A DNA stretch of 64,000 bases from Acidiphilium rubrum (lineage in GTDB: Bacteria; Pseudomonadota; Alphaproteobacteria; Acetobacterales; Acetobacteraceae), in NCBI RefSeq assembly GCF_900156265.1, contig NZ_FTNE01000016.1:1-64000 (forward strand), in the 5' to 3' direction. Made by a program: the position numbers and the translations under genes. The notes beneath the pieces were generated by a model. It was not told the DNA's origin. It saw only the letters and a program-made list of their open reading frames with translations, and did not search any database. Every line of letters begins with the position of its first letter. Position 1 is the stretch's first letter. This document shows positions 9,690-54,484 of this stretch, piece by piece.

Positions 9690-9938
9690 AAGGCCAGGGG
9701 CTCTGCCCCTGGACCCCGTTAAAGGCGGAGCCTTTAAAATCCATTAGTTTTAGGCAAGGGGAGGGCGACCCAGGCCAGATCGACGGAACCACCGAGGCAG
9801 CGCCCTCCCCTTGCCTAAAACTAGCGGGTTCTAAGGGCTCCGCCCTTAGTGGGGGTCGAGGGGGCGGAGGAGCCGAAGGTTCCAGCGATGCTCTTCATCG
9901 CTGGAATGGCTCCGGAGGGAAAGCCCCCCGCCTTGCTT
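9690..9938 (+). repeat. GC-rich long-stem hairpin element, copy 1, with nested insertion
   Basis: A perfect 23-base inverted repeat (9745-9767 and 9801-9823) encloses a 33-base loop. Smaller hairpins lie in both flanks: CCAGGGGC/GCCCCTGG (9694-9712), AAAGGC/GCCTTT (9721-9735) and CTAAGGGC/GCCCTTAG (9831-9849). The right flank also carries an extra hairpin (about 9866-9916), with TTCCAGCGATG pairing with CATCGCTGGAA, that is missing from copy 2 at 27743-27939. The element fills the gap between the convergent rdgB and gltB genes and may act as a bidirectional terminator. Confidence 0.9.
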
Positions 9939-18102: not shown

Positions 18103-19140
18103 ATGAGTCTGAGGCAGACATTGGATCATCCCCGCATCGGCCGCACGGCCGGGGGCGGCGATGACGAATTGGCGTCGGTTGCGCGCGATCTCGCGGTCGC
18201 GCGCGACGTGCTGAGCACCGAGGCCGACGCGCTGAAAGCACTGGCCGGCACGTTGGGTGCGGGGTTCTCGGCCGCGGTTTCGCTGCTGCACGCCGCAAGT
18301 GGCCGCGTGGTGGTGACCGGCATGGGCAAATCCGGCCATGTCGCCCGCAAAATCGCAGCGACGCTTGCTTCGACCGGCACCCCTGCCCTGTTCGTCCATC
18401 CGGCGGAGGCGAGCCATGGCGACCTCGGCATGATCGTGCCGGGCGATGTCGTGCTGGCCCTGTCCAATTCCGGTGAAGCGGCGGAACTGGCGGATATCGT
18501 GACCCATGCGCGGCGGTTTGCCCTGCCGCTGATCGCGATCACCGCGCGCGCCGACAGCACGTTGGCACGCGCGGCAACGCAGGTACTGCTGCTGCCGAAC
18601 GCGCCGGAGGCCGGCCCGATCGGCCTGGCGCCGACCACCAGCACCACCATGCAGATGGCGCTGGGCGATGCGCTGGCCGTCACGCTGCTATGCCGGCGCG
18701 GCTTTACCGCGGCGGATTTTTCCTCGTTCCATCCCGGCGGCAAGCTCGGCGCGCGGCTCAAGCGGGTGGGCGATCTGATGCACACCGGCGCCGCGATCCC
18801 ACTCGCCGCGCCCGATACCACGATGGACCGGGCGATTCTGCTGATCACGGAAAAGCATTTCGGCTGCCTCGGCATCGTCGATCCGGCTGGCACGCTGCTC
18901 GGCATCGTCACCGATGGCGATATGCGCCGCGCGATGGGCCCGGAGTTCCTGGGCCGGCGCGCCGATGCCATCATGACGCGGACACCCCGGGTGATCGGCG
19001 CGGCGGCGCTCGCCGAAGACGCGCTGCACGACATGACGGCGCTGGAACCCAAGGTGATGTCGCTGTTCGTGGTCGATGCGGCGCGGCGCGTGATCGGGAT
19101 CGTGCACATGCATGATCTGCTGCGCGCCGGGGTGGCGTGA
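18103..19140 (+). CDS. kdsD: D-arabinose-5-phosphate isomerase, KpsF/GutQ family
   Basis: 345 residues. Converts ribulose 5-phosphate to arabinose 5-phosphate, the first step to Kdo. The N-terminal SIS (sugar isomerase) domain has VVVTGMGKSGHVARKIAATLASTGTPA and VLALSNSGEA. Two C-terminal CBS domains (about 215-345) include CLGIVDPAGTLLGIVTDGDMRR. ATG 18103 is preferred. An in-frame TTG at 18049 would add 18 residues that do not look conserved. It is the first gene of the kdsD-lptC-lptA-lptB operon and its stop overlaps lptC (GTGA). Confidence 0.95.
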   Translation: MSLRQTLDHPRIGRTAGGGDDELASVARDLAVARDVLSTEADALKALAGTLGAGFSAAVSLLHAASGRVVVTGMGKSGHVARKIAATLASTGTPALFVHPAEASHGDLGMIVPGDVVLALSNSGEAAELADIVTHARRFALPLIAITARADSTLARAATQVLLLPNAPEAGPIGLAPTTSTTMQMALGDALAVTLLCRRGFTAADFSSFHPGGKLGARLKRVGDLMHTGAAIPLAAPDTTMDRAILLITEKHFGCLGIVDPAGTLLGIVTDGDMRRAMGPEFLGRRADAIMTRTPRVIGAAALAEDALHDMTALEPKVMSLFVVDAARRVIGIVHMHDLLRAGVA

Positions 19141-19886
19141 GCATGACCCCGCCAATCGCACCCGAACGGGCCGCCGTCCGCCCCGATCCACGCGGTGAGA
19201 AAAAAACGGGCTCGCTGCTGACCAGCGAGGGCATTCTGGCCGCACTCAGCCGCACGCGCGAAGAACAGCGCGCCGTGCTGGGACGCCACCGCCGCGCGGT
19301 GTCGATTTTCAAATATACGCTGCCAGCCCTGGCCGCGGTGCTGATCACCGCGCTGGCCGTGCTGCCCAACCTGCGCAACGGCGCTGCGATCGGCCGGATT
19401 TCATACAAGAAACAGGCGATTGCGGCCGGCGCGCCGCTTTCGCGCATGAGCACGGCGCGGTATCGCGGTGTGGATGCGCAGGGCGAGAAATTCACCATCA
19501 CGGCGCAGCGCGTCATCCAGGTCACGCAGGACCGGCTGAACCTGGTGGCGCCAAAGGGCGACCTGACCACCAAATCCGGCAATTGGCTGATGCTGAACGC
19601 GCGCCACGGCTTGTATCACCAGAACAGCCAGTTGCTCGATCTGGCCGGCAAGGTGACGCTGTACCGCCAGGACGGCACGATCCTGCACACCAGCCGCGCC
19701 GCGATCGATATCAAGGGCGGCTCGGCCAAGGGCTCCGATCCGGTCAAGGCGTTCGGCCCGTTCGGCACGCTGCACGCGCAGGATGGCTTCGTTGCGACCA
19801 ATCATGGCAGCGATATTCTGTTCAAGGGCGCTTCGCACGTGGTGCTTGATCAGGTTGCGGTTCCGGCCGTTGGGGGCGGATCGTGA
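19137..19886 (+). CDS. lptC: LPS export ABC transporter periplasmic protein LptC
   Basis: 249 residues from a GTG that overlaps the kdsD stop; an ATG at 19143 is also possible. It has a cytoplasmic lead of about 55 residues, one membrane helix (FKYTLPALAAVLITALAVLPNL) and a periplasmic LptC beta-jellyroll region (ARYRGVDAQGEKFTITAQRV through LDLAGKVTLYRQDGT). LptC joins the LptB2FG transporter to the LptA bridge that carries LPS across the periplasm. The long cytoplasmic lead is unlike the E. coli protein but usual in Rhodospirillales. Its stop overlaps the lptA GTG. Confidence 0.9.
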   Translation: MSMTPPIAPERAAVRPDPRGEKKTGSLLTSEGILAALSRTREEQRAVLGRHRRAVSIFKYTLPALAAVLITALAVLPNLRNGAAIGRISYKKQAIAAGAPLSRMSTARYRGVDAQGEKFTITAQRVIQVTQDRLNLVAPKGDLTTKSGNWLMLNARHGLYHQNSQLLDLAGKVTLYRQDGTILHTSRAAIDIKGGSAKGSDPVKAFGPFGTLHAQDGFVATNHGSDILFKGASHVVLDQVAVPAVGGGS

Positions 19887-20953
19887 CGGTAAGGCAAGGC
19901 AAGGACTGCTTTTTTGTAAAAAAGCAGCAAAAAACTTTTATTAATCTGGGGCACGGGCGGTTTCATCGTCACGGACTCATGGTTGGAAAGTTTTTTTGCT
20001 TCTTTTTTTCCAAAAAAAGAAGTGCTTCCTTCCGTCTCTTTCTGGCGTTCGCAGCACCCGTAGCCGCCCAAGCCCAATCCCTCGGCTTCGACGGCGGGTC
20101 CGGCCCAACACCGGTGCCGATCAACATCACCGCGAGCAACGGCATCGCCTGGAACCAGACGGCGCACACCGTGACGGCGATGGGCAGCGCCCAGGCCGTG
20201 CGCGGCAAGGTGACGGTGACGGCTAACCAACTGGTCGCGCATTATCAGCCGAAAACGGGCACCTTGCCGCCCGCGACCAAGCCCGCCGCGACCGATGGCG
20301 GGCTGGGCGGGCTCGATTCCGGCTCGTCGCAGATCACGCAGCTCGATGCCGTCGGCAATGTGCATATTTTCACCGCGACCGATCAGGCGTTCGGCGATCT
20401 TGCGGTGTTCCATATGGACCGGCACGAATTGGTCCTGACCGGCAAGCACCTGAAACTGACCACGCCGACCGACACTGTGACCGCGCGCGATCAGATCCAG
20501 TATTGGTCGCAGGAGCGCAAGGCGGTGGCGATCGGCGACGCGCTGATCGTGACGAACGACCAGCGCTCGATCGCGGCCGATACGCTGACCGGCTATTTCG
20601 TCGCGGCCGCGCCGCCGGGTGTCGCGACGGCGGACCCATCGTCCGATCAGGCGAGCAAGCTGCGCAAGGTGGTTGCGGTCGGGCATGTCGTGGTGCGGAC
20701 GGCGACCGATATCGCGACCGGTGAACACGGCGTGTATCATCCGGCGACCGGCATCGCGATCCTGACCGGCGATGTGCATATCACGCACGGACCGAACGAA
20801 TTGGCCGGGCAGCGCGGCCAGGTGAACATGAAGACCGGCATCGCGACACTGATGGCGACCAAGGGCCATCGCGTCGAGGGCATGGTGCTGCCCAATTCCG
20901 CCCCTGGACCTGCCGCGAAGTCGCCGCAATCCGCGCGGAAACCGGGTTCATGA
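19883..20953 (+). CDS. lptA: LPS transport protein LptA with element-encoded N-terminal extension
   Basis: 356 residues from the GTG that overlaps the lptC stop (GTGA). The mature region is an OstA/LptA domain (ASNGIAWNQTAHTVTAMGSAQAVRGKVTVTANQLVAHY and later GDVHITHGPNELAGQRGQVNMKTG). It should form the periplasmic LPS bridge. Residues 7-48 are encoded by a full AT-rich repeat element (19900-20030), giving an odd Phe/Lys-rich stretch (CFFVKKQQKTF, FFCFFFSKK). The hydrophobic core of a signal peptide follows at about 50-65 (FRLFLAFAAPVAAQAQ). An internal ATG at 19979 would keep the signal sequence but has no good ribosome site. The overlap with lptC makes the GTG plausible. Its stop overlaps lptB (ATGA). 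Confidence 0.88.
   Translation: MTVRQGKDCFFVKKQQKTFINLGHGRFHRHGLMVGKFFCFFFSKKRSASFRLFLAFAAPVAAQAQSLGFDGGSGPTPVPINITASNGIAWNQTAHTVTAMGSAQAVRGKVTVTANQLVAHYQPKTGTLPPATKPAATDGGLGGLDSGSSQITQLDAVGNVHIFTATDQAFGDLAVFHMDRHELVLTGKHLKLTTPTDTVTARDQIQYWSQERKAVAIGDALIVTNDQRSIAADTLTGYFVAAAPPGVATADPSSDQASKLRKVVAVGHVVVRTATDIATGEHGVYHPATGIAILTGDVHITHGPNELAGQRGQVNMKTGIATLMATKGHRVEGMVLPNSAPGPAAKSPQSARKPGS
19900..20030 (+). repeat. AT-rich double-hairpin element, full copy inside lptA
   Basis: The left hairpin is CTGCTTTTTT/AAAAAAGCAG (19906-19927) and the right one CTTCTTTTTTT/AAAAAAAGAAG (19999-20022). Inner arms and core are as in the other copies but more diverged. It lies in frame between the start codon of lptA and its signal-peptide core. 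It is the only copy inside an operon rather than at a gene's 3' end. Confidence 0.88.
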
Positions 20954-21741
20954 ACGAGCAATCGCGCGTCAGCGAGGGCGGGTATCGGGAGCCGGCCGGT
21001 ATGATTTCGATCCCATCGGGGACGGGGCTGGTGGCGACCGGTCTTGGCAAGAGTTTTCGCAAACGCCCGGTGGTGCGCAACGTGTCGGTCACGCTGCGGC
21101 GCGGCGAGGTGGTCGGGCTGCTCGGGCCGAACGGCGCGGGCAAGACGACGACGTTCTACATGATCGTCGGGCTGATCCAGCCGGATACCGGCTCGATCGT
21201 GCTGGATGGCGCGGATATCTCGACCCTGCCGATGTATCGCCGCGCCCGCCTGGGGGTTGGCTACCTGCCGCAGGAGGCGAGCGTGTTTCGCGGCCTGACG
21301 GTGGAGCAGAACATCATGGCGGCGCTGGAAGTGGTCGAAGACGACCGCGACCGGCGCGATGCGATGCTGACCGAGTTGCTGGCGGAATTCAGCATTCTGC
21401 ACCTGCGGCGCACCCCGGCCGTCGCGCTGTCGGGCGGTGAACGCCGCCGCGTCGAAATCGCCCGCGCGCTCGCCACCGGCCCCAGCTACATCCTGCTCGA
21501 TGAACCGCTGGCCGGTATCGATCCCATCGCGGTCGGTGAAATCCGCGACATGGTCACCCAACTCAAGGACCGCGGTCTCGGCGTGGTGATCACCGACCAT
21601 AATGTGCGCGAGACGCTCGAAGTGATCGACCGGGCCTATATTTTGCACGATGGGCAGGTTTTGATGGAGGGCCTGCCGGATGAGGTTGTCGCGCATCCGG
21701 ATGTGCGGCGGGTTTATCTCGGGGATCGGTTTATTCTGTAA
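20950..21741 (+). CDS. lptB: LPS export ABC transporter ATP-binding protein LptB
   Basis: 263 residues. Walker A GPNGAGKTT (59-67), Q-loop in GYLPQEASVFR, signature LSGGERRRVEIARAL, Walker B YILLDEP, and ITDHNVRETL with the switch His. It energises extraction of LPS from the inner membrane as a dimer with LptF/LptG, whose genes are not in this window. About 25 residues precede the usual start of the family. The ATG overlaps the lptA stop. In many alphaproteobacteria rpoN follows lptB. Here a half hairpin element and a convergent gene follow. Confidence 0.97.
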   Translation: MNEQSRVSEGGYREPAGMISIPSGTGLVATGLGKSFRKRPVVRNVSVTLRRGEVVGLLGPNGAGKTTTFYMIVGLIQPDTGSIVLDGADISTLPMYRRARLGVGYLPQEASVFRGLTVEQNIMAALEVVEDDRDRRDAMLTELLAEFSILHLRRTPAVALSGGERRRVEIARALATGPSYILLDEPLAGIDPIAVGEIRDMVTQLKDRGLGVVITDHNVRETLEVIDRAYILHDGQVLMEGLPDEVVAHPDVRRVYLGDRFIL

Positions 21742-21744
21742 AAG

Positions 21745-21780
21745 AAGGGTTCTTTTTTGTAAAAAAGAACCAAAAAACTT
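21745..21780 (+). repeat. AT-rich element, left half only
   Basis: The hairpin GGTTCTTTTTT/AAAAAAGAACC (21748-21771) is followed by AAAAAACTTTT. There is no core and no right half. It lies three bases after the lptB stop, between convergent genes, where a terminator would be expected. Confidence 0.8.
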
Positions 21781-21787
21781 TTACTCG

Positions 21788-22696
21788 TTATCTTGCAAAT
21801 AATTGGTCTGTGGTGTTCGAGATGTAGATCTCGTGGCGGGCGGTCAGATTGTCGCCGATCACCAGACGATTGTCGATCTGCGCCAGATGACCACCGACGG
21901 CAATGATCGGGTGATGCCAGACGAGCCCGCCGAAGATGAGCGTCTTGAAGCGGTACAGTTTTGCGATGAAGATCTGGTTGCCGACGCCGCTGTATTTCCG
22001 CTCCCCCACGATCTGTGGATGCTCCGCCGCGAGGCCGGAGGCGTGGAACAGGTATTCCGACAGAAAACTGCTTGCCGCACCGGTATCAAGAATCGCGGTC
22101 AGGCGATGACCATCCAGCGTCACCGGGAATTTCGGTGCGCCATTGCCCGCCTTGCCGAAATCGACCGGGTGTAGCGCACCGCTCCATGGTACGATCGTGC
22201 CGCAATCGAACGTATCGACCAGAAAGACCTGCTGCGCCGGCAGGTCGATGTCGATATCGTAATAACGCAGGATGTCGTTGCCGATCAGGCCGCCGAGATG
22301 CCGCCCATCAGGCAGTTTGTGGTCCGACAACGCGAGCACGGGCAGCAGGATCTTGCTGCCGCGCGCAGCACCGAGTTGAAAATCGCGCACCGTCGCGACC
22401 GAGGTGAACGTCGACCCGCCCGCTCCGGCGACCAGCAGCGATTTGCTGGCCTCGACCGGCAGATTGAGCGCGGTGGCGACCGACGGTGTCACGCTGGAAA
22501 ACGCGCCACCGGTATCGATCATGATATCCACCGGCAATCCGTTCATCCGCGCGCGGACGATCGGCATCGGGCTGTTCGGAAAGGCGGTGTTGAGCAGGGC
22601 AACCGGCTTGGGTTTGCACACGCCCGATGAAGCACAACCGCCCAAAGCCAGCATCATCACGATACCAGCCAGCACAAAAGCAAAATTCACAAACAT
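21788..22696 (-). CDS. Putative lipoprotein with two retropepsin-like aspartyl protease domains
   Basis: 302 residues. A lipobox (ALGGC, Cys21) follows an N-terminal hydrophobic helix, so the protein is probably a membrane-anchored periplasmic lipoprotein. It has two aspartyl-protease cores: IMIDTGGAFSSVTPS (Asp61) and AILDTGAASSFLS (Asp204), each followed by a hydrophobic-hydrophobic-Gly segment (GGLIGNDIL; LIFGGLVW). The arrangement resembles a pepsin-like pseudodimer built from two retropepsin-type halves. The substrate is unknown. A run of seven G lies directly before the ATG on the coding strand. Confidence 0.75.
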   Translation of the reverse strand: MFVNFAFVLAGIVMMLALGGCASSGVCKPKPVALLNTAFPNSPMPIVRARMNGLPVDIMIDTGGAFSSVTPSVATALNLPVEASKSLLVAGAGGSTFTSVATVRDFQLGAARGSKILLPVLALSDHKLPDGRHLGGLIGNDILRYYDIDIDLPAQQVFLVDTFDCGTIVPWSGALHPVDFGKAGNGAPKFPVTLDGHRLTAILDTGAASSFLSEYLFHASGLAAEHPQIVGERKYSGVGNQIFIAKLYRFKTLIFGGLVWHHPIIAVGGHLAQIDNRLVIGDNLTARHEIYISNTTDQLFAR

Positions 22697-27742: not shown

Positions 27743-27939
27743 GCAAGGCGGGGGGCTTTGCCCCCTCGACCCCCACTAAGGGCGGAGCCCTTAGAACCCG
27801 CTAGTTTTAGGTAAGGGGAGGGCGATACAGGCCAGATCAGCGGAAAGTCCGAGGCAGCGCCCTCCCCTTACCTAAAACTAATGGATTTTAAAGGCTCCGC
27901 CTTTAACGGGGTCCAGGGGCAGAGCCCCTGGCCTTGCTT
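27743..27939 (-). repeat. GC-rich long-stem hairpin element, copy 2
   Basis: A 23-base perfect inverted repeat (27802-27824 and 27858-27880) encloses a 33-base loop. The flanks are the reverse complement of the flanks of copy 1 (9690-9938), including the AAAGGC/GCCTTT and CCAGGGGC/GCCCCTGG hairpins. The loop, however, reads in the same direction as in copy 1. It lacks the nested hairpin insertion of copy 1. It lies between convergent genes. Confidence 0.9.
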
Positions 27940-44309: not shown

Positions 44310-44447
44310 GAAGGGAGAGTCTTCTTTTTTGTGAACAAAAAAGAAGCGAAAAAAACTTCGTCGATTGGGGCCCGTGACCGTGAAAACGCCCGTGCCCCCG
44401 AGTCAGGACGTTTCTTGCGTCTTTTTTACAAAAAAGAAGCCTTCCCT
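44310..44447 (+). repeat. AT-rich double-hairpin element, full copy overlapping a gene end
   Basis: The left hairpin is CTTCTTTTTTG/CAAAAAAGAAG. The core contains CCCGTGA and CCCGTGC blocks, and the right arm is CTTTTTTAC/AAAAAAGAAG. The right hairpin is inside the 3' end of the minus-strand YfhO-like gene and supplies its last ~14 codons and stop. Confidence 0.9.
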
Positions 44448-49443: not shown

Positions 49444-49509
49444 GTACTGATTCCGGGGGTTTGGTTTCGTTGTTTTGTTGCTATATCGTAACGATTTAGG
49501 CGTGCGAAC

Positions 49510-50196
49510 TCATGGACCCTTGCGCCACATTTTTTTGACGTTGAAGGACGGCACGAAGGGCTGGTGCCAGGGCGGTACGGGGGGTGGCGGCGGGCCGAGG
49601 ATTTCGTGGAGTTGTTCTGGCGTGAAGTCGATGCTGCCGTCGGGGTTGATTTTGTATTGGTCCATGAAGCTGGGCTGGCGCTTTGGTTTGCGGATGCGCT
49701 TGGGCCGGGGCTTGGTCGATTTGGGGCGCTTGATGCTGGCTGGGTAGCGCAGGCCGAGCATGGTGTGGACCGGGCGGAGGATGCGGCCGAGGCTGGGGTG
49801 GGTGGCCAGCAGCGCCTGGACGATGGGATCTTCCATGAAGTGCTGGAGTTCGAGGCGGGCGTTGGCACCGGCGACGATGGGGGCGGCTGGGCCGTTGGGG
49901 AGCAGGCGGATGAGCCAGGCGAAGCCGCGCGGGAGGGTTAGGGCGGGTTTGGGTTTGGGTTCGGTGGCTTCTTTGCGTTCGGTCTTGGCGCGGATGCGGG
50001 GGGTTTGCGGGGGTTTGGCGGCGATTTTGGCGAAGCGGGCGATCTGGCGGCTGAGGTAGTTCCAGATCAGGACGAGGAGCGGGCCGTGGATTTTGAGGCG
50101 GTAGCCGTTGTCGGCCACGGAGCGTTGCAGGGCGCGGAAGATCATCGCGAAGCGCTCGGACGGGTCGGCGGGCATGAAAGGCGCGTTCGAGATCAT
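49510..50196 (-). CDS. Hypothetical proline-rich basic protein (full copy of the gene at 1-395)
   Basis: 228 residues from the ATG at 50196. It begins PFMPADPSERFAMIFRALQRSVADNGYR, then has a hydrophobic/basic helix (GPLLVLIWNYLSRQIARFAKIAAK), a Lys/Pro-rich linker, and the conserved block ending in NVKKMWRKGP. No known domain or catalytic motif is apparent. The open frame continues upstream antisense to rpsB, but that part is not conserved and was excluded. No convincing ribosome site precedes the ATG. Two copies in one 64-kb window suggest a family with several copies in this genome. Function unknown. Confidence 0.7.
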   Translation of the reverse strand: MISNAPFMPADPSERFAMIFRALQRSVADNGYRLKIHGPLLVLIWNYLSRQIARFAKIAAKPPQTPRIRAKTERKEATEPKPKPALTLPRGFAWLIRLLPNGPAAPIVAGANARLELQHFMEDPIVQALLATHPSLGRILRPVHTMLGLRYPASIKRPKSTKPRPKRIRKPKRQPSFMDQYKINPDGSIDFTPEQLHEILGPPPPPVPPWHQPFVPSFNVKKMWRKGP

Positions 50197-52339: not shown

Positions 52340-52424
52340 GGTTGGGGGTGGGGTGGGGTGATGGGGGTTGGAGGCATGGTCGTACTTACTTGTCAAACGG
52401 ACATTCGATCGGCACAGTTCAGTG

Positions 52425-53381
52425 ATGCCCTCACCACATTTCCCCGGCGTTAAAACACCACCTCGGTACGAGGGCGCATTCCTTCGGTTCATGAATCCAT
52501 TATTGGATGCGATGCGCGAGAAAGGTGGGCAAGCGCGGCCGCGCGAAATCTATGATACGATCGCGCACAGGCTTAATCTGTCCGAGGAAGAGCGAACAGT
52601 TACTAACAAGAATGGTTATCCGCGCTTTGAAAATCAAATCGCATGGGCACGCTCCTATCTGGTCAAAACCGGCTACCTGGATTCACCCTCTCGCGGTGTC
52701 TGGAGGCTTACTGACAAAGGCAAAGAAGCCTATCTCGATGGCCCCGACATAGATTTGATTTGGCAGCGCGTCATGGAGATGAACGCCCTGGCAAAGGCCA
52801 AGATCGGAAGCGATGAGGGAGTGGCGCAGGGGGTCGTCTTCGATCGGCAACCCTCTGTGAAAGACGAGGAAGATGAGGTCATCGCCCCTTCGCCGCAGAC
52901 TTCGCCTTATAGCGATCATCGAGCCGCCCTCGTCACGTTGATCGGGAGTATGACGCCTGCTGGCTTTGAAGATTTCTGCTCAGAGTTGCTGGCGCGTGTC
53001 GGGGTGGAAGATGTTCAGACCACGCGGTATTCCAAAGATGGCGGCATCGATGGTACGGGCCGGTTGCGGATCAACGAATTTGTGTCTCAACCAATCGCCT
53101 TTCAGGCGAAAAAATTTGATGGCTCGGGACGGAAGGTTTCGTCGGAGGAAATCCAGCGATTTCGGGGGGCCATTGGCGGGCACATTGCGAAAGGAATTTT
53201 CTTTACAACAACAACGTTTTCTGAGGATGGACGGCGTGAAGCGCGAGCGCCCGGAAAAGTCGAAATCGAGCTTGTTGATCTGGATCGGATATTGGAGATA
53301 TGCGAGACTTATGAGATTGGGCTCATCGAGCAGAAGATTCTTGTCACGGAGCCCTCTTTCTTCGAGCGATTTCGTCGTTAG
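52425..53381 (+). CDS. mrr: Mrr-type restriction endonuclease
   Basis: 318 residues from the ATG at 52425; GTG 52422 is also possible. An N-terminal Mrr winged-helix domain (PREIYDTIAHRLNLSEEER, RSYLVKTGYLDSPSRGVWRLTDKG) is followed by a Glu/Asp-rich linker and a C-terminal Mrr_cat PD-(D/E)xK nuclease. The nuclease has FEDFCSELLARVG, DGGIDGTG with the metal-binding Asp, FQAKKF with the catalytic Lys, and GAIGGHIAKGIFFTTTTFS. Mrr enzymes cut methylated foreign DNA. Base composition is clearly more AT-rich than the neighbours and codon use is less G/C-biased, suggesting recent transfer. No methyltransferase is adjacent, as expected for a methylation-dependent enzyme. Confidence 0.9.
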   Translation: MPSPHFPGVKTPPRYEGAFLRFMNPLLDAMREKGGQARPREIYDTIAHRLNLSEEERTVTNKNGYPRFENQIAWARSYLVKTGYLDSPSRGVWRLTDKGKEAYLDGPDIDLIWQRVMEMNALAKAKIGSDEGVAQGVVFDRQPSVKDEEDEVIAPSPQTSPYSDHRAALVTLIGSMTPAGFEDFCSELLARVGVEDVQTTRYSKDGGIDGTGRLRINEFVSQPIAFQAKKFDGSGRKVSSEEIQRFRGAIGGHIAKGIFFTTTTFSEDGRREARAPGKVEIELVDLDRILEICETYEIGLIEQKILVTEPSFFERFRR

Positions 53382-53549
53382 CGAGCGTAGAGCGGAAGAA
53401 CGCAGCTTCATCCGCCAACTTTAGCGACGTTAGTCTAGGTTTGATTATTGTGAAGCGTTGCTTGGAAGTATGCAGCCGAAGTTAGTTGCATACTCAGATT
53501 GTTGTGGTGAAGGTAATCTCGGGGAATGGTGTGCAACGGCGAGAGAGAC
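53382..53549. other. AT-richer gap after mrr
   Basis: No gene is visible. A hairpin AGTATGCA/TGCATACT (53467-53494, 12-base loop) is present, without a T-run. Composition resembles mrr rather than the backbone, so it is probably part of the same acquired segment. Confidence 0.45.
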
Positions 53550-53579
53550 GGCGGATTGCGCTTCGCTTTTCCGCCCTAC
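53550..53579 (-). repeat. REP sequence 1
   Basis: GGCGGA...TCCGCC palindrome with CTAC at the right end. On the minus strand it reads GTAG followed by the stem GGCGGAAAAGCGAAGCG. One of four nearly identical copies around the RAYT gene. Confidence 0.85.
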
Positions 53580-53596
53580 GGTTGTTGCATTATTGA

Positions 53597-53632
53597 AAGT
53601 TTTTGCTTCTTTTTACAAAAAGAAGCGCTTGC
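53597..53632 (+). repeat. AT-rich element, right half only, left of RAYT cassette
   Basis: GAAAGTTTTTGCTTC arm and hairpin GCTTCTTTTT/AAAAAGAAGC, then GCTTG. It matches the half element at 54295-54330, including the following GCTTG. Confidence 0.75.
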
Positions 53633-53674
53633 TTGATTGATGGTGAAACGGGATCGTTGATCGTTCGGGAAGGA

Positions 53675-53704
53675 GGCGGATTACGCTTCGCTTTTCCGCC
53701 CTAC
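53675..53704 (-). repeat. REP sequence 2, overlapping the RAYT stop codon
   Basis: Same 30-base pattern as REP 1 with ATTACGC in place of ATTGCGC. Its terminal CTAC (53701-53704) is read on the minus strand as GTAG, and the TAG in it is the RAYT stop codon. Confidence 0.85.
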
Positions 53705-54228
53705 GGTTGCTGGGGTTGGTGGTCCGGTTCGCCCATTTCGGGGTGGGGGTCGGGGGTGTCGGGGGATGACCATGTGGGGTCGTAGAGGCCTTGGGCGACG
53801 CATTTTTGGAAGGTGGAGAAGGGCCAGGCGGCGGGGTGGGGGGCGAGGCCGTGTTTGACCGGGTTGAAGTGGATGTAGTCCATGTGGGCGCGGTAGTCGT
53901 TTTCGGTGCGGATGGTGTGTTCCCAATAGCGGTTTTGCCAGGGGCTGGGAGCGAAGTTTTGTGTGGTGGCTTTGGTGAAGCGGGTTTTGAGGGCGCGCCA
54001 GCGGGCGGCGTAATCGGTGTCGCCTTCGGGGAGGGTCCAGAGGCAGTGCATGTGGTCGGGGAGGATCACCCAGGCGTCGATGTGGAAGGGGGCGCGGTGG
54101 CGGGTGGTGCGGATGGCGGTGCGGAGGGCTTCGATTTCGCGGGTCAGGAGGTCGGAATTGCGGTTGGCGAGGTTGATGGTGAAGAAGTAGGTGCCGCCTG
54201 GGGTGCGGTTGCGGCGGTAGTTGGGCAT
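53701..54228 (-). CDS. REP-associated tyrosine transposase (RAYT)
   Basis: 175 residues. A Y1/HUH single-strand transposase of the TnpA_REP type: N-terminal MPNYRR..PGGTYFFTINL, the HUH metal motif in PDHMHCLW (His59, His61), and YRAHMDYIHFNPVKHGL with the probable catalytic Tyr118. Length is typical. Two REP copies lie on each side of it, so the cassette has the full arrangement expected of a RAYT acting on REPs. The C-terminus ends in a low-complexity Pro/Gln stretch and the stop codon falls in a REP. The frame is intact, so it may be active. The ATG is preceded by no strong ribosome site. Confidence 0.93.
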   Translation of the reverse strand: MPNYRRNRTPGGTYFFTINLANRNSDLLTREIEALRTAIRTTRHRAPFHIDAWVILPDHMHCLWTLPEGDTDYAARWRALKTRFTKATTQNFAPSPWQNRYWEHTIRTENDYRAHMDYIHFNPVKHGLAPHPAAWPFSTFQKCVAQGLYDPTWSSPDTPDPHPEMGEPDHQPQQP

Positions 54229-54294
54229 GGAAGGATGTTAGCAGGGCGGGGGGCATTGGGGTAGATTGATTTTGTGGCGACGGAGCGAAATTGA

Positions 54295-54330
54295 TGAAAG
54301 TTTTTGCTTCTTTTTTTTAAAAGAAGCGCT
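54295..54330 (+). repeat. AT-rich element, right half only, right of RAYT gene
   Basis: GAAAGTTTTTGCTTC arm and hairpin CTTCTTTT/AAAAGAAG followed by GCTTG. Near-direct repeat of 53597-53632. Confidence 0.7.
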
Positions 54331-54376
54331 TGTTTTCTTTTTTAGGGCCGGGTTGATTGCGTGTGGTTAGAGAAGA

Positions 54377-54406
54377 GGCGGATTACGCTTCGCTATTCCG
54401 CCCTAC
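54377..54406 (-). repeat. REP sequence 3
   Basis: Same pattern as the other REPs, with a CTATTCC variant in the second arm and the CTAC end (GTAG on the minus strand). Confidence 0.85.
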
Positions 54407-54441
54407 AAGTCGAAGAGGTGGGTTGCGTGTGGTTGGAAAGG

Positions 54442-54471
54442 GGCGGATTGCGCTTCGCTTTTCCGCCCTAC
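54442..54471 (-). repeat. REP sequence 4
   Basis: Identical in sequence to REP 1 and in the same orientation. It ends 14 bases before the metH stop codon. Confidence 0.85.
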
Positions 54472-54484
54472 CAGGGGGGTGGGG

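Follow-up and report, generated by a model that had tools for sequence, protein, structure and literature searches.

How can a palindromic repeat come to lie in frame within the 5′ end of lptA, a lipopolysaccharide-transport gene, in an acid-living bacterium, and what becomes of the residues that it would encode? The question is raised by a window of 64,000 nt (the whole stretch of DNA that was analysed) from an Acidiphilium genome of 3.98 Mb in 78 contigs, in which 4-nt overlaps occur at both the lptC/lptA and the lptA/lptB junctions and the lptA start and lptC stop are merged as GTGA (Table 1). In the comparisons below the present genome is G000 and Acidiphilium sp. PA is G003. The first-pass annotation had described an AT-rich double-hairpin repeat element between the GTG start of lptA and the core of its signal peptide, and this element proved to be real and a member of a large repeat family. 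Its location was also given correctly, while the proposed bounds (19900-20030, residues 7-48) are here corrected to a conserved core at 19895-20030, corresponding to codons 5-50. The reading that we consider probable as a whole is that a mobile REPIN-like element inserted into the lptA leader, is translated from the GTG and is then cleaved off.

Table 1. Features of the lpt operon, of the element inserted in lptA and of the RAYT locus (window positions).
Feature	Position	Strand	Remarks
lptC	19137..19886	+	Pfam LptC E 3e-9
Shine-Dalgarno (SD) region of GTG start	19872..19882	+	GGGGGCGGATC; GGAGGCGGATC in Acidiphilium sp. PA
lptA	19883..20953	+	GTG start; precursor 356 aa; Pfam LptD_N/LptA E 8e-14; single genome match
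Whole REPIN-like element	19889..20036	+	Alignment of 47 copies; arm ends set by eye
Conserved element core	19895..20030	+	Unit compared between species; lptA codons 5-50
Hairpin 1	19906..19927	+	CTGCTTTTTT-GT-AAAAAAGCAG; compensatory changes
Central stem region	19929..19997	+	AAAAAACTTTT pairs with AAAGTTTTTTT round G-rich loop; minimum-energy fold
ATG inside element	19979..19981	+	Only other standard in-frame start before hydrophobic core here; SD -2.7 kcal/mol
Hairpin 2	19999..20022	+	CTTCTTTTTTT-CC-AAAAAAAGAAG; 3′ arm codes Lys-Lys-Arg; compensatory changes
Hydrophobic core and predicted signal peptidase motif AQA/QS	20036..20074	+	Hydropathy; mature LptA predicted from Gln65
lptB	20950..21741	+	Pfam ABC_tran E 5e-36
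Half-element (single hairpin)	21745..21788	+	Directly 3′ of lptB stop; also in Acidiphilium sp. PA
Half-element 3′ of RAYT ORF	53589..53634	+	
RAYT gene (REP-associated tyrosine transposase), candidate mobiliser	53701..54228	-	NF047646 E 1e-53
Half-element 5′ of RAYT ORF	54290..54335	+	

Structure of the element and its repeat family

In the alignment of 47 full-length copies, composed of the loci of about 40 fetched copies and of the window's own, the consensus runs from a purine-rich arm through hairpin 1, AAAAAACTTTT, a G-rich centre, AAAGTTTTTTT and hairpin 2 to a pyrimidine-rich arm. The outer arms (in lptA, purine at 19889-19904 and pyrimidine at 20023-20036) are less conserved, and the element in lptA measures about 135 nt. 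Across 36 aligned copies, 35 of them from this genome's 47 and one from G011, hairpin pairing is kept in 99.6% of the cells and 13 cells are changed on both sides, a number that none of 500 shuffles attained. The lptA copy has a compensatory change of its own in hairpin 1, CTGC/GCAG in place of CTTC/GAAG. The predicted RNA fold of 155 nt has an energy of -52.6 kcal/mol (z = -4.9), which none of 200 shuffles equalled. A fold of the whole element as one long hairpin, which was the RNAalifold choice, was rejected, having a covariation term of about 0 and breaking the variable pair in 6 of 36 rows, while local hairpin 1 keeps that pair in 36 of 36. At the Rfam gathering score the element belongs to no Rfam family, a tRNA being the only match in the window.

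A first look at this genome gave 292 element candidates, 40 of which were scored, and among those 40 the copy most like the lptA element is 85% identical to it over 144 nt. In the bacterial family as a whole, matches (E up to 1e-6) were found in 34 of 120 sampled genomes, including two Acidiphilium genomes already counted in the genus survey. As in REPINs, two inverted REP hairpins are separated by a spacer, the copy number is high and the location is mainly extragenic, with 46 of 47 copies not wholly inside a well-supported gene. GTAG is absent directly 5′ of the palindrome, where the consensus reads AAAGTTTTTTTGC, and for want of such a tag before the hairpins the family is called REPIN-like and not a GTAG REP.

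Other repeats also occur in the window. The half-element behind lptB, 4 nt past the stop, has a stem that differs yet still matches (GGTTC/GAACC), and it faces a convergent predicted gene. A 432-nt inverted duplication joins positions 1-432 with 49473-49904 (95% complementary, 49 kb between), and a second inverted-repeat element with 54-nt arms is present in two copies (9690-9865 and 27760-27935).

Position of the copies and the insertion in lptA

The nearest predicted stop codon lies at a median distance of 7 nt from the copies. For 40 of the 45 copies in this genome, for 37 of 45 copies in G003 and for 27 of 38 in G011 a stop was found within 30 nt, compared with 950 of 6000 random noncoding points. 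Gene ends were called with a simple custom hexamer gene finder and should be read as approximate, copies for which the stretch offered no usable stop were set aside, and the first two sets are not independent because many insertions are common to both. The lptA core begins 9 nt past the lptC stop, a position typical for the family, although in this case it already belongs to the next gene. Across the genome the copy is not, as had been claimed, the only full one within an operon: with gene ends from the same finder, 35 of 47 full copies are situated between codirectional genes, and at least a dozen copies between such genes have no more than 30 nt on either side.

The lptA copy is, on the other hand, unique among the 47 in falling entirely within a well-supported gene. 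Some fifteen of the others run 1-48 nt into the end of a predicted gene, and one (L067) shares 73 nt with an antisense ORF of 46 codons that scores low. The 47 copies in G003 include the same lptA insertion and, at the orthologue of the L067 site, one copy contained in an antisense ORF of 52 codons, also with a low score; of 41 non-edge copies in G011, none is in a well-supported gene and one (L178) is in a small unassigned ORF. That ORF (L178:1383-1724) is basic and passes through a full element, from which a large part of its final 60 residues would come. Three predicted genes end inside an element (L008:1500-1632, L072:1509-1644, L077:1501-1629), where the repeat would give the stop and the C-terminal residues. 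Nine ORFs across elements were considered, six with a coding-like continuation and three (L070, L086, L005) that would carry the element at the C-terminal end. One further full copy, at 44313-44447 of the window, has a right flank that was not found in the G003 stretch, and may be a younger insertion or reflect a local rearrangement near the duplicated genes at 40-47 kb.

The closest lptA relatives are those of Acidiphilium sp. PA (93% protein identity, best segment) and of an Acidiphilium MAG, and the DNA of the window is about 93% identical to that of G003 over the longest aligned blocks. Acidiphilium sp. PA has the same insertion, with 136 core nt aligned, 9 differences, no gaps and an open frame. 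The flanks of the insertion are 93.7% and 95.8% identical between the two genomes, and the lptA element has diverged at about the same pace as its flanks and the other copies. The element is absent from the lptA of L015 (G011, 80% protein identity) and of the other readable relatives, which have ordinary leaders; when aligned at the insertion, none of them proved to have the element's residues without the element. The overlap of the lptA start with the lptC stop recurs in 23 other distinct genomes, whose leaders comprise about 17-40 residues, compared with 64 in both element carriers. This survey tried 29 loci, of which four (L023, L035, L039, L041) gave no call, one (L028) was the wrong gene, and one (L012) duplicates L018, both being on the same contig and counted once. 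The search of 60 relatives gave no lptA for 10 of them, the genus members G005 and G012 among these, which limits the known spread of the insertion.

The short, element-free leaders of the relatives indicate that the insertion is derived and lies inside the leader. As part of the best explanation, it would have occurred before this Acidiphilium and Acidiphilium sp. PA split, in their common ancestor. An assembly artefact or a dead gene is extremely improbable and was rejected, given the same arrangement in a second genome, the purifying selection on the mature part of lptA and the single lptA match in the whole genome.

Reading frame, start codon and leader

As had been stated in the first-pass annotation, no stop codon interrupts the lptA frame of the element. 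The equivalent frame is open in 23 of 47 copies (8 and 14 of 47 for the other two forward frames), and 23% of frames are open in dinucleotide shuffles; by itself, the open lptA frame is not remarkable. Nor is it strong evidence for selection, since about half of the open frames of the other G000 copies (27 of 53) are still open and in register in G003. Likewise, the lack of an indel is not exceptional, because 9 of the 28 other orthologous pairs of full length show a net frame shift (the set excludes one partial pair and 11 pairings based on a single flank). When these 28 pairs were mapped to the lptA-equivalent frame, 89 of 271 differences fell at codon position 3, compared with 6 of 9 in the lptA element (p ~0.04), an excess over few differences that is suggestive of selection, if not strong. 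The pN/pS ratio is 0.24 for the element and 0.11 for the mature region (aligned; the two genes differ by three codons), and mature LptA is, by this measure, under purifying selection.

In the lptA frame the hairpin arms read as Phe and Lys runs, which supports the earlier suggestion that the element gives LptA a long Phe/Lys-rich signal n-region. The last arm is read as Ser-Lys-Lys-Arg, a few residues before LFLAFAAPVA-AQA/QS. Cleavage is predicted at AQA/QS on account of this motif and of the mature start Q-S-L-G that most genus relatives have, and cleavage after AQA would remove all foreign residues.

In-frame ATG, GTG or TTG codons before the hydrophobic region are at codons 1 and 33 here and at codons 1, 3, 27 and 33 in Acidiphilium sp. 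PA; the next standard start is codon 78 in both species, beyond the mature N-terminus. Thus, if this single-copy conserved lptA is used, residues of the element must be made, and if LptA is exported by its own signal peptide, part of the element must be translated. The point bears directly on a possible annotation error, namely that lptA starts only beyond an extragenic element. Most N-terminal REPs may indeed be extragenic, according to PMC3733652, and seven other candidates for intragenic copies were rejected here for this very reason: six loci of this genome (L061, L067, L064, L006, L062, L080) and L168 in G011 have their own start after the element. At lptA, however, neither species has an ATG, GTG or TTG after the element and before the mature protein, and a start at the non-standard CTG of codon 54 would give a leader of 11 residues that has no n-region, so such an error is very improbable and close to refuted.

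It had also been suggested that translation may restart at ATG 19979. The first half of the element would then be an untranslated leader, and the protein would have a 32-residue leader that begins MVGKFFCFFFSKKR. This ATG is kept in both species, the resulting leader would be nearer to the usual length, and the folded element could hinder ribosomes coming from the GTG. However, its SD duplex is estimated at -2.7 kcal/mol, versus -9.2 at the GTG here and -10.1 in Acidiphilium sp. PA, the ATG is within a strongly folded region, the overlapping lptA start is conserved in relatives, and the third-position excess spans the whole core. SD strength and the conserved overlap with lptC favour GTG 19883, which we take as the probable start; a restart is unlikely, and even then sequence of the element would be translated.

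An insertion kept for a regulatory effect, with an RNA structure at the lptC-lptA junction that makes expression of lptA-lptB lower than, or independent of, that of lptC, is about as improbable as a restart. The strong fold adjoins the start codon, and REPs have been hypothesised to affect mRNA stability and termination (PMC3733652). On the other hand, the ribosome-binding site is outside the element, no promoter-like or terminator-like consensus match was found in 19600-20400, and the divergence of the lptA copy is about as fast as that of its flanks and the other copies. The hairpins are common to the copies generally, and can therefore be accounted for by mobility alone. Slightly more room may be left for a domesticated repeat, in which a working Lys-Lys-Arg n-region is combined with a folded RNA at the lptC-lptA junction that sets the LptA/LptB dose, although this too is doubtful. 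If so, cleaved leaders would be a general safe haven for mobile palindromes entering essential genes, and removal after translation would be a protein-level counterpart of splicing out an insertion.

In the reading that we prefer, that of a mobile insertion in a cleaved leader, a non-autonomous REPIN-like element with two inverted hairpins round a central stem would have been moved by a RAYT-type transposase. It would have inserted some 9 nt past the lptC stop (the exact point is approximate) in the common ancestor of both Acidiphilium, at the usual position of the family just after a stop codon. Because the lptA start overlaps that stop by 4 nt, this site falls in the n-region of the LptA signal peptide. 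The reading frame was kept, and since the A-rich hairpin arm codes Lys-Lys-Arg before the hydrophobic core, the positively charged n-region would have been rebuilt. Translation would start at GTG 19883, coupled to lptC, and proceed through the element, after which the 64-residue leader, mostly encoded by the element, would be removed by signal peptidase. Mature LptA would then be unchanged and the insertion tolerated. The element was apparently retained intact in two species because that part of the protein is cut off, with a probably near-neutral effect on the host.

RAYT genes and comparison with known systems

Matches to NF047646 over the cut-off were found in five of 13 genus genomes, the same five that have the most element candidates (G000 291, G003 239, G006 43, G011 170, G012 109; at most 40 per genome were scored), although these RAYT-bearing genomes may simply be close kin. 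G009 has 25 candidates and 22 element matches and no RAYT match; elsewhere in the genus, eight element matches occur in G001 and two in each of G007 and G010, while four genomes have none. The RAYT count leaves out ten weaker, mostly partial NF047646 matches, and PF01797 missed 10 of the 11 genes found over the cut-off.

RAYT genes are thus present in genomes with the repeats and have repeats beside them. Eight of the 11 loci over the cut-off have an element or half-element no more than 200 nt away from the stop-to-stop ORF, compared with 46 of 254 predicted genes that have an element within 250 nt (naive binomial p 1e-4, which overstates independence because the RAYT loci are related to one another); L135, L139 and L152 have no close element. 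In five loci that look similar, as grouped by eye (L142, L143, L144, L148, L138), a half-element lies 57-68 nt downstream, while L139 looks like them but has none. Mobilisation by a RAYT-type transposase is, on these grounds, probable.

Besides its half-elements, the RAYT gene of the window has four GTAG-type REPs around it (GGCGGATTRCGCTTCGC...CCGCCCTAC; 53540-53706 and 54376-54473), unrelated to the AT-rich family, and it might mobilise either kind of repeat. Most of 52365-54483 is without a counterpart in the aligned Acidiphilium sp. PA blocks, and the same segment includes an Mrr-type restriction endonuclease (Mrr_N and Mrr_cat, 52368-53381, plus strand).

Several known systems may be compared with these observations. 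In Pseudomonas fluorescens SBW25, REPINs and REPtrons are moved by RAYT (TnpA-REP) transposases (PMC3116915). The present family resembles REPINs in its inverted hairpin doublet with a spacer, its size of about a hundred nt, its hundreds of first-look candidates lying mostly outside genes, its compensatory hairpin changes, and the RAYT genes of repeat-rich genomes, most with an adjoining repeat. Unlike the SBW25 REPINs, it is without the GTAG tag, has AT-rich stems and a longer unit with a central stem region, and is found in the Acetobacteraceae relatives of Acidiphilium. A second comparison is with TIRtrons, in which RAYT-like (TIRYT) genes lie beside self-complementary non-GTAG repeats, some dispersed as families (PMC3733652). 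There the TIRs flank the gene as inverted pairs, whereas inverted repeats bounding the transposase were not found at any of the 11 RAYT loci (search threshold E 0.01): the Acidiphilium repeat is usually one-sided, being on both sides only at L151, with the same orientation there; in the window the two halves share one orientation.

The same source describes palindromic repeats in frame in conserved genes, and REPs in codirectional spacers that lie near the 3′ end of the upstream gene, the bias also seen here (PMC3733652). N-terminal REPs of other bacteria are mostly suspected to be mis-annotated, while lptA has no alternative standard start and a leader predicted to be cleaved, so mis-annotation is excluded for its element as far as sequence can exclude it.

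A further likeness is to a palindrome in frame in protein-coding genes of an alphaproteobacterium, as the lptA element is. Rickettsia palindromic elements (RPEs), of about 100-150 nt, are said to have been reported in this situation by Ogata in 2000 and 2002, and nearly half of those first reported were reportedly intragenic. The in-frame location of RPEs in protein-coding genes is also described in PMC10969869. The open frame of the lptA element and the want of an alternative standard start, both seen in two species, would accord with a translated, RPE-like insertion. RPEs are commonly intragenic, whereas in the Acidiphilium family this applies to 1 of 47 copies here, and RPE residues are kept in the protein, whereas those of the lptA element are expected to be removed by signal peptidase.

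Literature searches confined to open-access papers brought up none that dealt with this repeat in Acidiphilium or with a REP inside lptA, and a non-GTAG REPIN-like family with nearby RAYT genes is now described in Acidiphilium and its relatives. The lptA copy offers a clean, checkable case of a mobile palindrome inside an envelope gene. It suggests an origin for such insertions, where a preference for sites just past stop codons meets overlapping gene pairs, and a basis for their tolerance, in the leader location and the Lys-rich A-tracts. In-frame REP and RPE insertions are already known, and to this known kind the present case adds as new details the family itself, the position in a leader and the retention by two species; what sets the lptA case apart is its site in a leader that is probably cleaved.
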